64,000 nucleotides of DNA from Chryseobacterium sp. Lineage in GTDB: Bacteria > Bacteroidota > Bacteroidia > Flavobacteriales > Weeksellaceae. The notes under the pieces are model-generated. The model had not been told where the DNA came from. It was given only the letters and a program-made list of their open reading frames with translations, and did not search any database. Positions 9,548 to 23,003 of the stretch are shown here, piece by piece. Both the position numbers and the translations under genes were made by a program. The stretch covers positions 101,940 through 165,939 of the forward strand of contig JAITUA010000017.1 of NCBI GenBank assembly GCA_031286615.1. Direction: 5' to 3'. Position 1 is the first letter of the stretch. Every line of letters starts with the position of its first letter.

Positions 9548-10141
9548 TTAATAAAATATCTTCCTGTTCTGAACTTTTATTAAATGCGCATTATGCATTT
9601 TTTTAATTGTTCTGATCACTGTTTCCACGCGCAGCCCTGTTAAATTAGCTAGCTGCTGTCTCGTGAGGGGAATCTGAAATGAATATTTGTTATTGTCATT
9701 ATTGCCCTTCAGATAGTCCATTACCGTTTTGAGCTTATTTAAAGGATCAGGTGAGGAAACATTAAATAGCATCACATACTTGTAATACAACCGCTCAGCC
9801 ATACATTTAAACATTTTGGAAGGAACTTCCGGATTTTGGTCCAGTAAGCTGAAGAAATCTGGTTTGGATAATTTGAGAACAGTACAGGGAGTTTTAGCTG
9901 TAGCATTGGTAGGGTAGACCTTTTCATCAAAAAGAAATGATTCTCCAAAACTCTCCCCGTCATACAAAATGTTTTGAATAAATTCTTTGCCGTCTTCATG
10001 ATAGTTGTTTAGTTCAACAATGCCATTAATAATCTGATAATAAAACTTTGGCAAACTTCCTTCATGAAAAATCGTTTGATTCGCTTCAAGGTTTTCATAA
10101 TTTGCACCATAGGCCAATAATAAATCTTCACCTATTATCAT
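9548..10141 (-). CDS. Crp/Fnr-family transcriptional regulator
   Basis: 197 residues. The N-terminal part (about 1-115) is a cyclic-nucleotide-binding beta roll (NQTIFHEGSLPKFYYQIING, GESFGESFLFDEKVYPTNA). The C terminus (about 145-197) has a Crp-type winged helix with recognition region LTRQQLANLTGLRVETVIRT. There is no Cys cluster for an Fe-S centre and no clear cAMP-binding Arg-Ser pair, so the ligand is unknown. It is closely related in design to the regulator at 13467-14084. An FNR-like palindrome lies in the spacer upstream (10336-10351). Confidence 0.92.
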   Translation of the reverse strand: MIIGEDLLLAYGANYENLEANQTIFHEGSLPKFYYQIINGIVELNNYHEDGKEFIQNILYDGESFGESFLFDEKVYPTNATAKTPCTVLKLSKPDFFSLLDQNPEVPSKMFKCMAERLYYKYVMLFNVSSPDPLNKLKTVMDYLKGNNDNNKYSFQIPLTRQQLANLTGLRVETVIRTIKKMHNAHLIKVQNRKIFY

Positions 10142-11013: not shown

Positions 11014-11404
11014 ACTTCTAAAATACTTTTATAGTCTGTATTTTATTTACGGAAACCCGTAATGATTATCTTTTTATGTTAGATCTCTTAATAGGGAACA
11101 AATATTATATTTGATCCCTGAAGTGATTCTTTCTACACTTATTTTGTACTCATATATTATACTTACTAATTCGTCCTTGCTTTGGATTTTATTCATCTTT
11201 AATTTTATAGCCTAATCAAAAATTTTTATTCCTTCCATTTAATATGTTGAATGGTTAGATACTCTGATATTATAATGTGTAATAAAAATATGAAAGAGAA
11301 TATTTGCTTTTTACACTTATTATTTTGGTAGCCACAAATATTCTTTTCTCTAAATAATGTTTGTGATTTTACGCTATTGCGTTTTTAAGATTGATAAAAA
11401 ATTG
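11014..11404. other. intergenic region before the lysC leader
   Basis: AT-rich with no convincing reading frame or repeat; it ends in the promoter of the aspartokinase leader. Confidence 0.4.
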
Positions 11405-11412
11405 TATATTTG
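11405..11412 (+). promoter_or_regulatory. -7 promoter element of lysC leader
   Basis: Perfect TATATTTG; the nearest well-placed TTG is at 11377-11379 (spacer 25, rather long). It predicts transcription starting near 11418, about 12 bases before the leader ATG. Confidence 0.55.
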
Positions 11413-11429
11413 CCCAGCAAAAAAAGAAA

Positions 11430-11486
11430 ATGATATTATCTAACTTAAAAAAAGGAAAGAAACAGTACTTACGTCGAATGTCGTGA
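11430..11486 (+). CDS. lysC leader peptide (18 residues, Lys-rich)
   Basis: ATG at 11430, stop TGA at 11484-11486; peptide MILSNLKKGKKQYLRRMS. Four Lys codons in a span of five (11448-11462) precede an antiterminator strand that overlaps the stop codon. A Lys-rich leader in front of aspartokinase, the first enzyme of lysine synthesis, fits attenuation by charged tRNA-Lys. The reading frame is short and A-rich DNA favours AAA codons by chance, so the RNA architecture is the stronger evidence. Confidence 0.65.
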   Translation: MILSNLKKGKKQYLRRMS

Positions 11487-11554
11487 GTCATCTTCCTATT
11501 GGTTAGAAATCAAATACATCAGGAGCTTGTCATCACGACAGGCTCTTTTTTTTT
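11479..11554 (+). promoter_or_regulatory. transcription attenuator of lysC (terminator and antiterminator)
   Basis: Terminator: GAGCTTGTC (11523-11531) pairs with GACAGGCTC (11537-11545, one G-U), followed by nine T, 26 bases before the lysC start. Antiterminator: TGTCGTGA (11479-11486), which contains the leader stop codon, is a perfect 8-base complement of TCACGACA (11533-11540), i.e. the loop and 3' arm start of the terminator. A ribosome finishing the leader would cover 11479-11486 and allow termination; a ribosome stalled at the Lys codons would leave it free and allow read-through. Confidence 0.75.
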
Positions 11555-11580
11555 GAAAAATTTTGACAATTTAATATATT

Positions 11581-12900
11581 ATGAAAGTATTGAAATTTGG
11601 CGGGACTTCGGTAGGAAGTCCGGAGCGGATTGAGCAGTTATTACCAATTATCAAATCTCAGGCATCAGACAAGCATCTTGTTGTTTTATCAGCTGTCTCC
11701 GGTACCACAAACGATTTGGTGAAATTATCGGAGCTATATCAAAACAAGGATATTGAAGCGGCCTATAAACATATTGATGTGCTATATGAGAAATATAAAA
11801 AATTTGTAAATGAATTGTTTAAGACAGAAAAAGGGATTCTTGAAGCTTCAGCATTTATTGATAAAATTTTTGATCTCTTTTATCAGTTCAAACATAAAAA
11901 TTTCACTTCCAGTGCAGAGCGTATTATACTTGCACAAGGCGAGATTATTTCAACTACTCTGTTTCATTTGCATTTAAAGGAAAAAGAAGTCTCTTCTGTA
12001 CTGTTATCAGCATTAGATTTTATGATAATTGATGAAGATAAGGAACCCAATATTGATGAAATAAGAAAAAAAGCATGTATTGAAATAGAAAAATACCAGG
12101 AAGAAGTATTATTCATTACCCAGGGATATATATGTAGAAATGCTCAGGGTGAAATTGATAATCTGCAGAGGGGAGGTTCTGATTATACGGCTTCATTACT
12201 TGGAGCAGCATTGCAGGCAGAAGAAATCCAGATCTGGACAGATATTGATGGGTTCCACAATAACGATCCCAGATATGTCCAGAATACTAAGTCTATCGCC
12301 AGACTAAGTTTTGATGAAGCAGCAGAATTATCCTATTTTGGAGCCAAAATTCTTCATCCCCAAAGTGTATTCCCTGCAAGAAAATATAATGTTCCTGTAA
12401 GATTATTAGATACCATGAACCCATCTGCAGCAGGAACATTGATCTCGGGAGAGACAACAAATCAAAATCAGATTGTAGCCATTGCTGCTAAGGATGGGAT
12501 TACGGCAATCCGTATTCAGTCTTCCCGTATGCTGATGGCGTATGGCTTTTTGAGAAAGGTTTTTGAAGTTTTCGAACGGTACAAAACTCCTATAGATATG
12601 ATTACTACTTCTGAAGTGGCAGTTTCGCTTACCATTGACCAAACGGATAATCTTTCTGAAATTGTAAGAGAGCTTAACGCCTTTTCGGCAGTTGAAATTG
12701 ATAGTGAGCAGTCTATCATATGCATTGTCGGAGATTTTAGAAAAGATAATCATGGATATGCAACTATGGTCTCTGAAGCGGTAAAGCATATACCGATACG
12801 AATGATTTCCTACGGAGGAAGTGAAAATAATATTTCATTATTGGTTCCATCTGTTTTCAGGATAGAATCATTGAGATCTCTGCATAACAGATTATTTTAG
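11581..12900 (+). CDS. lysC: aspartate kinase, monofunctional
   Basis: 439 residues. It phosphorylates aspartate, the first step toward lysine, diaminopimelate, threonine and methionine. N-terminal nucleotide and substrate motif KFGGTSVGSPERI; the catalytic domain contains TQGYICRNAQGE, LQRGGSDYTASLLGAAL and EIQIWTDIDGFHNNDPR. Residues about 300-439 hold tandem ACT domains (GITAIRIQSSRMLMAYGFLRK, TTSEVAVSLTIDQ), which bind the feedback inhibitor, probably lysine. There is no homoserine dehydrogenase fusion. Expression is likely controlled by the leader attenuator directly upstream. dapD lies about 30 kb away, not in the same operon. Confidence 0.95.
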   Translation: MKVLKFGGTSVGSPERIEQLLPIIKSQASDKHLVVLSAVSGTTNDLVKLSELYQNKDIEAAYKHIDVLYEKYKKFVNELFKTEKGILEASAFIDKIFDLFYQFKHKNFTSSAERIILAQGEIISTTLFHLHLKEKEVSSVLLSALDFMIIDEDKEPNIDEIRKKACIEIEKYQEEVLFITQGYICRNAQGEIDNLQRGGSDYTASLLGAALQAEEIQIWTDIDGFHNNDPRYVQNTKSIARLSFDEAAELSYFGAKILHPQSVFPARKYNVPVRLLDTMNPSAAGTLISGETTNQNQIVAIAAKDGITAIRIQSSRMLMAYGFLRKVFEVFERYKTPIDMITTSEVAVSLTIDQTDNLSEIVRELNAFSAVEIDSEQSIICIVGDFRKDNHGYATMVSEAVKHIPIRMISYGGSENNISLLVPSVFRIESLRSLHNRLF

Positions 12901-13466: not shown

Positions 13467-14084
13467 TTAATATAAAATCCTGCGGCCCTCAAGCTTTATC
13501 ATTTCATTTTTTACCATTTTTTTTACCGTTCTGATGACTGTCTCAACTCTCAGTCCTGTAAGATCAGCAATTTGCTGGCGGGTAAGCTCTATAGGAAAAC
13601 AGTGCTGACAGTCTCCGTCATGATAGCTTTTCAGATAATCCATTACGCCTTTCAGTCGTTGAATAGGATCTGCTAATGCCAGATTACGGACCATTAAGTT
13701 GTTATAATACAGTCTTTGTGATAAACACATATTCATTTCCAGAGAAAGTTCCGGATTACGTTTAAGCATTTCCATGAAATTATCTTTGGACATCTTTACA
13801 ATTTCTGTAGTTTGTAAACTTATAGCATTGGTAGGATAAAGCTTTTCAATAAAAAGAAGCGGATCTCCAAAACTTTGATTTTTACCCAATATGTTATGAA
13901 TAAATTCCCTTCCGTTTTCAGTAAAGATGTTCAGTTTTACTTTTCCACTGATAATCTGAAAATAATATTGTGAATGATCACCTTCTTTGAAAATAAACTC
14001 GTGAGCCTTATAGATGACATTTTCACCCCCGAATGAATGAAGGATTTTCTCATCGATATTCATGCAGCTTATTGTTTTTTTCAT
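13467..14084 (-). CDS. Crp/Fnr-family transcriptional regulator
   Basis: 205 residues. Cyclic-nucleotide-binding-like roll at about 20-130 (AHEFIFKEGDHSQYYFQIIS, NQSFGDPLLFIEKLYPTNA) and a C-terminal winged helix (about 160-205) with LTRQQIADLTGLRVETVIRT, almost identical in the recognition helix to the regulator at 9548-10141. The two may therefore bind similar operators. The effector is unknown. It is divergent from the two-component operon at 14272, with paired direct repeats in the shared spacer. Confidence 0.92.
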   Translation of the reverse strand: MKKTISCMNIDEKILHSFGGENVIYKAHEFIFKEGDHSQYYFQIISGKVKLNIFTENGREFIHNILGKNQSFGDPLLFIEKLYPTNAISLQTTEIVKMSKDNFMEMLKRNPELSLEMNMCLSQRLYYNNLMVRNLALADPIQRLKGVMDYLKSYHDGDCQHCFPIELTRQQIADLTGLRVETVIRTVKKMVKNEMIKLEGRRILY

Positions 14085-22929: not shown

Positions 22930-23003
22930 TGGAGAATACGGGATTCGAACCCGTGACCTTTTGACTGCCAGTCAAACGCGCTAGCCAACTGCGCCAATCC
23001 CCC
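22930..23003 (-). tRNA. tRNA-Ala (anticodon GGC)
   Basis: A 74-nt cloverleaf on the minus strand. Acceptor GGGGGAT pairs with ATTCTCC including G3-U70, the alanine identity pair. D-stem GCGC/GCGC, anticodon stem TTTGA/TCAAA with loop CTGGCAG giving anticodon GGC, and T-arm ACGGGTTCGAATCCCGT. The discriminator is A; CCA is not encoded. Confidence 0.96.

Follow-up and report, generated by a model that had tools for sequence, protein, structure and literature searches.

The L-box riboswitch (RF00168) is the usual RNA-level control ascribed to lysine synthesis; it regulates lysC and lysine genes and senses lysine directly. The classical attenuators of Proteobacteria (trp, his, leu, thr and phe) have a leader peptide with codons for the cognate amino acid and a leader RNA of four segments, and stalling of the ribosome leads to antitermination. 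We know of no lysine member among them. In the trp attenuator, the antiterminator strand pairs with the 5′ arm of the terminator. The SEP5 small ORF of Sinorhizobium, located before an aspartate dehydrogenase gene, has been suggested to encode a leader peptide with six Thr and three Lys codons, and the accessible text of that paper describes no attenuator (PMC10117765).

For Flavobacterium psychrophilum, the accessible part of PMC9723704 gives clues for leader-peptide attenuation before amino-acid operons and reports structured 5′ elements before pheA and hisG; the words "lysine" and "lysC" are absent from its main text. The accessible parts of PMC4833913 and PMC11955535 contain no lysine leader, and no lysine leader-peptide attenuator was found among the listings, abstracts and passages covered by searches of the PMC library. 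The closest described system is Bacteroid-trp (RF01692), which appears in the accessible parts of two papers, being tabulated by Weinberg et al. 2010 (PMC2864571) and placed 5′ of the trp operon in F. psychrophilum (PMC6414381).

The leader that precedes lysC in a Chryseobacterium sp. is very likely a ribosome-mediated transcription attenuator that senses charged tRNA-Lys and is built on the Bacteroid-trp scaffold. It is a sister of the Bacteroid-trp attenuator with specificity for lysine, present in one clade of lysC, and the mechanism itself is not new. The original prediction had considered the switch possibly undescribed; this appears to hold for the lysine-specific version before lysC, but not for the scaffold, which is already RF01692. 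The leader would resemble the L-box in acting on lysC at the RNA level; unlike the L-box, which senses lysine directly, it would sense charged tRNA, and it gives no match to the L-box model. With the classical attenuators it shares the cognate-codon leader peptide, the four segments and the predicted path from stalling to antitermination, whereas its antiterminator strand pairs with the loop and 3′ arm of the terminator. The SEP5 ORF differs in phylum, in gene and in its mixed Thr and Lys codons.

Structure of the lysC leader

The analysed window is the whole stretch of 64,000 nucleotides, in which the lysC leader can be divided into a putative promoter, a leader ORF with two nested stems, and a terminator (Table 1). 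The octamer TATATTTG probably serves as the promoter, judging from its match to TAnnTTTG, which the accessible part of PMC6414381 quotes as the Bacteroidetes promoter motif. An A-rich stretch separates the octamer from the leader ORF, and a spacer separates the ORF from the terminator. The original prediction described a leader frame with the Lys codons KKGKK, eight bases around its stop codon complementary to the loop and 3′ arm of a T-tailed terminator, and a distance of 26 bases between this terminator and lysC. All of these are present: the complement is exact, the T tract ends 26 bases before the lysC start codon, and the Lys-codon leader is kept in 25 of 25 orthologues.

Table 1. Features of the lysC leader, in window coordinates
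Feature	Position	Strand	Evidence
Putative promoter motif TATATTTG (Bacteroidetes TAnnTTTG)	11405–11412	+	Sequence; 25/25 Chryseobacterium orthologues (alignment)
Leader ORF, ATG at 11430, 18 codons and TGA (11484–11486), encodes MILSNLKKGKKQYLRRMS	11430–11486	+	Sequence, alignment
P1, outer leader stem, TCTAACT (11439–11445) with GGTTAGA (11501–11507)	11439–11507	+	Fold, arm-swap test
Lys7–Lys8 codons, −12/−11 from stop; stalls here predicted to come too early for switching	11448–11453	+	Leaders compared, stall folding
Lys10–Lys11, putative sensor codons, −9/−8 from stop	11457–11462	+	Leaders compared, stall folding
P2 hairpin, 11467–11473 with 11482–11488, hides the antiterminator strand	11467–11488	+	Fold, pair conservation
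Antiterminator strand TGTCGTGA, overlaps codons 17–18 and stop	11479–11486	+	Exact reverse complement of 11533–11540
Intrinsic terminator, 11 bp, stem 11521–11547 and T tract to 11554	11521–11554	+	Fold; terminator prediction
Antiterminator partner TCACGACA, terminator loop and 3′ arm	11533–11540	+	Invariant in Chryseobacterium orthologue alignment
lysC (ATG at 11581), aspartokinase III-like, 439 aa	11581–12900	+	TIGR00657, 305.6 bits (cut-off 208.7)

The switch had been proposed as complete with two states, in which the ribosome either stalls or finishes. This part is supported by the folding of stalled leaders described below, but it is incomplete, as P2 adds a third state without a ribosome. 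In RNA free of ribosomes P2 conceals the antiterminator strand, which gives the leader the classical four-segment design.

The segment 11415–11552 has a folding z of −4.17, and none of 200 shuffles is equally stable. Shuffling the leader 5000 times yields an eight-base complement in 49 cases, an event of about 1%. Of the 672 short frames that begin with ATG in the window, three contain KKxKK, a count that includes the leader itself. At these rates the complement and the Lys codons of a single sequence are suggestive, and it is conservation that decides.

No riboswitch family reaches the Rfam cut-off in the 64-kb window, where the sole match at the cut-off is a tRNA gene (22930–23003, minus strand). 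A lax threshold applied to positions 11380–11600 gave only sub-threshold matches, none of them to a riboswitch, which argues against the L-box, the T-box and any other Rfam class and bears out the earlier remark that the locus has no lysine riboswitch.

Conservation and distribution of lysine leaders

An orthologue of lysC with at least 82% identity is present in 25 of 148 Chryseobacterium genomes, so that only a minority of Chryseobacterium has it. Leader, complement and terminator accompany every one of the 25 orthologues, and the leader ORF is intact, ungapped and ended by TGA in each of them. Within Chryseobacterium there is almost no variation: of 36 predicted pairs, a single one, located in the promoter region, has a two-sided change.

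Lysine leaders also occur in Myroides, Avrilella and two Bacteroidetes metagenome-assembled genomes (MAGs). Across these genera the Lys codons, the antiterminator and the terminator are conserved; the terminator stem covaries, and the antiterminator helix hardly varies. Related lysC genes were found at E up to 1e-80 in 36 of 395 genomes of the order. Among the loci inspected, L033 (LysC of 66% identity; the same stretch as Myroides guanonis L164) has the leader MYQIKTNKVKKQYLRPTS, with another complementary pair as its outer stem, and L032 from the same genus has a leader as well. The other 20 of the 22 inspected loci (L034–L053, 49–56% identity; L053 partly N) lack such a leader over the 260 bases examined, as judged by eye and from a list of short frames holding Lys; six weaker lysC matches were left out.

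A core pattern was scanned over about 85,000 genomes (species). The pattern requires TTACGY and TCGTGA and forbids G as the middle base of codon −8, and hence Trp; it is blind to other cores and to Arg, Gly, Cys and some Ser versions. It returned 26 stretches, 16 from Chryseobacterium, seven from Myroides, one from Avrilella and two from Bacteroidetes MAGs. In 25 of these lysC follows directly, and the 26th (L150) ends at the edge of the locus; its contig is as long as that of L010, in which lysC does follow. Wherever the next gene is readable, in 27 of 27 and 25 of 26 loci, the element is located directly 5′ of lysC.

The leader parser required K.KK or WWW, and all 101 loci passed it, with none lost. 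In the 36 distinct lysine leaders, Lys is always found at positions −11, −9 and −8 from the stop codon, with both AAA and AAG used at each, and in 34 of the 36 also at −12. Codon −10 is Gly, Ala, Ser, Val, Asp or Gln, and the codons around the Lys positions vary while Lys at −11, −9 and −8 persists. Every one of the 36 ends in TCG TGA, which the pattern demanded for those leaders that it supplied, and pairs TCGTGA with TCACGA in the terminator. The terminator loop is ATCAC in 35 and AATCAC in one. At the expected leader start, L145 has no ATG and L152 has GTG.

In a LysC tree of 18 proteins with the leader and 20 without, the leader-bearing proteins form one group (support 100/97), a single clade that depends on sampling, as the proteins were chosen for that property. 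Chryseobacterium is a single branch (100/100) within the Myroides sequences. This position, together with the scattered presence of the leader, suggests that lysC was transferred.

Relationship to Bacteroid-trp

The covariance model R1, built from 16 lysine leaders alone, has a single strong copy in the Chryseobacterium genome itself. The remaining matches there are weak, from 30.6 bits down, and the two best of them resemble plain terminators on reading. Over the order, R1 matches 96 of 395 genomes at E up to 0.01, and it finds the leaders of trpE, of the type MKTITNNTWWWNNLRQTS, at E down to 6.6e-13. Their core TTTACGTCAAACGTCGTGA and terminator GGCTTGTCATCACGACAAGCC are identical to those of the lysine leaders. 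The 70 places read from this search comprise 10 lysine leaders, 48 Trp leaders and 12 ordinary terminators, with no third amino-acid specificity among them; the 12 terminators were excluded from the later leader set. In a search of the phylum, 41 of 395 genomes gave matches, and eight weak loci that were read are three Trp leaders and five ordinary terminators.

The 48 distinct Trp leaders (WWW) come from genus g13 and other genera of family f3. All have a trpE start motif downstream within 700 bases, 46 of them within 202; the best NCBIfam model for the downstream gene of L076 is TrpE, under its cut-off. The Trp codons are located at −10, −9 and −8 in 43, 41 and 42 leaders, respectively, so that the sensor codons of the two types overlap at −9 and −8. 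The types are further alike in the length of the leader ORF, in P1 and P2, in the TTACGTC..TCGTGA core and in the CTTGTCATCACGACAAG terminator. They differ in that Bacteroid-trp has Trp codons and trp genes, whereas the leaders described here have Lys codons and lysC, or lysC and lysA.

RF01692 matches each of the eight Trp-type loci (of the 48) that were put to Rfam, with 53.0–75.5 bits against a cut-off of 49. It gives no match at E up to 0.1 in the lysine loci L002, L145, L151 and L155. On short stretches over the full model length, it scores 21.5 bits in the window (E 3.3), 33.5 bits in Myroides odoratimimus L155 (E 0.019) and 34.2 bits in MAG L152 (E 0.013), all under the gathering score of 49 bits. 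By bits it ranks second in the window and first in L155 and L152, and for two of the three, the window and L155, a lower E is reached by other sub-threshold families. The three loci thus lie outside RF01692 by score, and also by content, as Lys codons and lysC stand in place of Trp codons and a downstream trp gene. As the Rfam scores are sub-threshold, the homology is based on the R1 search and the shared letters: the lysine leader is homologous to Bacteroid-trp, with a shared scaffold in which Lys codons replace the Trp codons.

Of the 48 Trp leaders, 40 have TCGTGA as the last letters of the ORF, and 46 have it close to the stop codon; in L116, L117, L128 and L135 the stop codon precedes it. 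Six of the seven Myroides genomes with a lysine leader (L179, L180, L182, L184, L186 and L189) also contain a WWW leader, located before a 393-residue frame, which was identified as trpB by family search in L180 only. These six leaders read the TTACGTC..TCGTGA core in another frame, and five have a different terminator loop. The stop codons before TCGTGA and the reading in another frame indicate that the core is an RNA element and that the sensor codons are the coding element. LRxTS as a functional end of the peptide is ruled out by the same Myroides trpB leaders.

It is probable that the Trp attenuator scaffold was copied before lysC and its sensor codons were swapped once, with the core and spacing kept, and that lysC and the attenuator were then passed on together, also into Chryseobacterium.

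Some Trp leaders deviate from the scaffold. In the Chryseobacterium genome itself, trpE (contig C19, upstream of 101451–102842, minus strand; best model TIGR00564, under cut-off) has the WWW leader MFTMSNNIWWWLSNSSSGLKVLSCC (L199). Its antiterminator and terminator are quite different, CTTCGTCGG with CCGTTGAAG forming eight of nine pairs, and RF01692 gives no match there at E up to 1. In the Trp leaders L267, L268 and L269 of genus g32, the terminator is altered to TTATC/GATAA, and the antiterminator region has GTGAG with CTCA. In L108 and L117, a 98-residue frame that resembles GIY-YIG by eye is located between the Trp leader and trpE.

Covariation of the helices

Exchange of helix arms was tested on 24 divergent members (seven lysine and 17 Trp leaders) with 5000 permutations. 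The own arms of P1 give −10.1 kcal/mol on average versus −7.2 kcal/mol for exchanged arms, none of the 5000 permutations is as good, and the own arms beat the mean of their own row in 21 of 24 members. The own arms of the terminator are likewise unmatched in 5000 permutations. The antiterminator gives −10.3 for own arms versus −10.1 for exchanged arms, and 38 of 5000 permutations are as good, a weaker result than for P1 because this helix hardly varies. Among 12 divergent lysine leaders, three pairs of the terminator stem have two-sided compensatory changes; the six core pairs of P2 are present in all 12, invariant and without covariation in this set, and P1 is absent from the consensus structure.

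Folding of leaders with stalled ribosomes

Equilibrium folding was computed for RNA that becomes free 12 bases 3′ of the A-site codon's first base, the assumed edge of the ribosome; edges of 10 and 14 were tried only for the near-complete terminator. In the window, for transcripts with 3′ ends at 11543–11545, the antiterminator has a probability of 0.96–1.00 when the ribosome stalls at Lys10–Lys11, 0.03–0.18 when it stalls at Lys7–Lys8, and 0.00 when it is absent or at the stop codon. For ends at 11540–11542, a stall at Lys7–Lys8 also gives the antiterminator (0.83–1.00). With the full terminator, the probabilities of the antiterminator and terminator are 0.63 and 0.37 for Lys11, and 0.21 and 0.79 for Lys10.

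For transcripts that extend three bases beyond the partner strand, the antiterminator is ahead of the terminator in 8% of the 36 lysine leaders at −11/−12, 89% at −9, 100% at −8 to −6, 81% at −5 and none from −4 to the stop codon. These models put the switch in the range of codons −9 to −5, where a stall would favour the antiterminator, and finishing the leader or lacking a ribosome would favour the terminator. The same transcript end places the antiterminator ahead in 69%, 81% and 88% of the 48 Trp leaders at −10, −9 and −8, respectively. This end was chosen after the near-complete terminator had proved too blunt for the Trp type. With the end one base earlier, 47–58% of the lysine leaders favour the antiterminator at −15 to −11, and the contrast is weaker. 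Once transcription has come within two bases of completing the terminator stem, the probability of the terminator is less than one half in 22% (−9) and 64% (−8) of the lysine leaders and in at most 15% of the Trp leaders. As the equilibrium near the complete terminator favours termination in many leaders, the switch must act kinetically, and timing matters. The folding predicts switching for stalls at Gln12, Tyr13 and Leu14 too, so position alone is not what makes the switch lysine-specific.

Proposed mechanism and alternatives

From the anatomy, the conservation, the covariation of P1 and the terminator, the codon placement, the gene context and the shared scaffold, all of which were computed, we infer the transcription start, translation, stalling, read-through and the response to lysine. 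RNA polymerase would start just past the promoter motif, and a ribosome would enter the 18-codon leader. When lysine is short, the ribosome would stall at Lys10–Lys11 and cover the 5′ arm of P2; the freed TGTCGTGA could then capture the emerging terminator loop and 3′ arm (TCACGACA), and the polymerase would continue into lysC. When lysine is ample, the ribosome would reach the stop codon and cover TGTCGTGA, so that the terminator forms. Without a ribosome, P1 and P2 would hide TGTCGTGA, and the terminator would form too. As in known attenuators, the leader codons are those for the end product of the pathway, with lysC downstream, and lysA in five loci. The terminator and antiterminator are computed to be exclusive and set by the position of the ribosome, a result that is dependent on the chosen transcript end.

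A ligand-binding riboswitch or a protein-bound RNA could control the terminator, with the small ORF incidental. Such control would account for the near invariance of TTACG and TCGTGA and for the conserved nested structure of P1 and P2, but the fixed letters are explained by antiterminator pairing, since TCGTGA lies past the stop codon in four of the Trp leaders. The ORF, moreover, behaves as a coding sequence: it is ungapped in every Chryseobacterium orthologue, Lys is kept through both of its codons while nearby codons change, and the sensor codons are Trp in all 48 leaders where the gene is trpE. Together with the Rfam results at both thresholds, this makes a riboswitch or protein-bound RNA improbable.

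Slighter still is the probability that the terminated transcript is a trans-acting small RNA or encodes an active peptide, and that attenuation of lysC is secondary. The product of about 135 bases would be compact, with its own promoter motif and terminator, and there is a precedent in rnTrpL/peTrpL of Sinorhizobium, as described in the accessible parts of PMC7298713 and PMC10117765; however, the element stands directly before lysC at every readable locus, and the genome contains one strong copy. An ordinary terminator next to a chance Lys-rich frame in AT-rich DNA would agree with the frequencies of KKxKK and of the eight-base complement given above, but is hardly credible given the conservation across genera and the scaffold common to the trpE leaders.

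If the attenuator was indeed retargeted by codon exchange, it would be the first lysine leader-peptide attenuator known to us and a natural case of such retargeting. The lysine leader would be a second RNA-level solution for lysine synthesis, in Bacteroidota, acting via tRNA charging. Six Myroides genomes contain a natural pair of predicted switches, with one RNA scaffold and different sensor codons, and this sharing makes the amino-acid specificity of an attenuator testable by codon exchange alone. For annotation, a broader RF01692 or a separate sister family for lysine could cover the lysine members tested, which RF01692 did not detect.

lysC and its neighbourhood

The best model for LysC is NF006570 (lysine-sensitive aspartokinase 3), with 387.7 bits, under the cut-off of 455, and its Pfam domains are AA_kinase and ACT_9. 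The genome has three aspartokinase-type matches, one of which is an 816-residue frame. The frame that comes after lysC in the window has 99 aa and no Pfam match, and in Chryseobacterium L156 the frame after lysC is not lysA and has a weak nucleotidyltransferase match. In relatives, lysA comes after lysC in five loci of Myroides, Avrilella and one MAG: it follows immediately in Myroides L146 and L161 and in MAG L145 (389–397 bits versus the curated cut-off of 297.9), and partial matches are located at the locus ends in L151 and L164. The frame after lysC in L163 resembles lysA by eye, and the locus of L152 stops shortly past lysC. Judging from this gene order, the putative regulated unit in relatives is lysC–lysA. 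In the window, the lysC region is flanked by two genes for Crp-family regulators (cNMP_binding and HTH_Crp_2), both on the minus strand, at 9548–10141 and 13467–14084.
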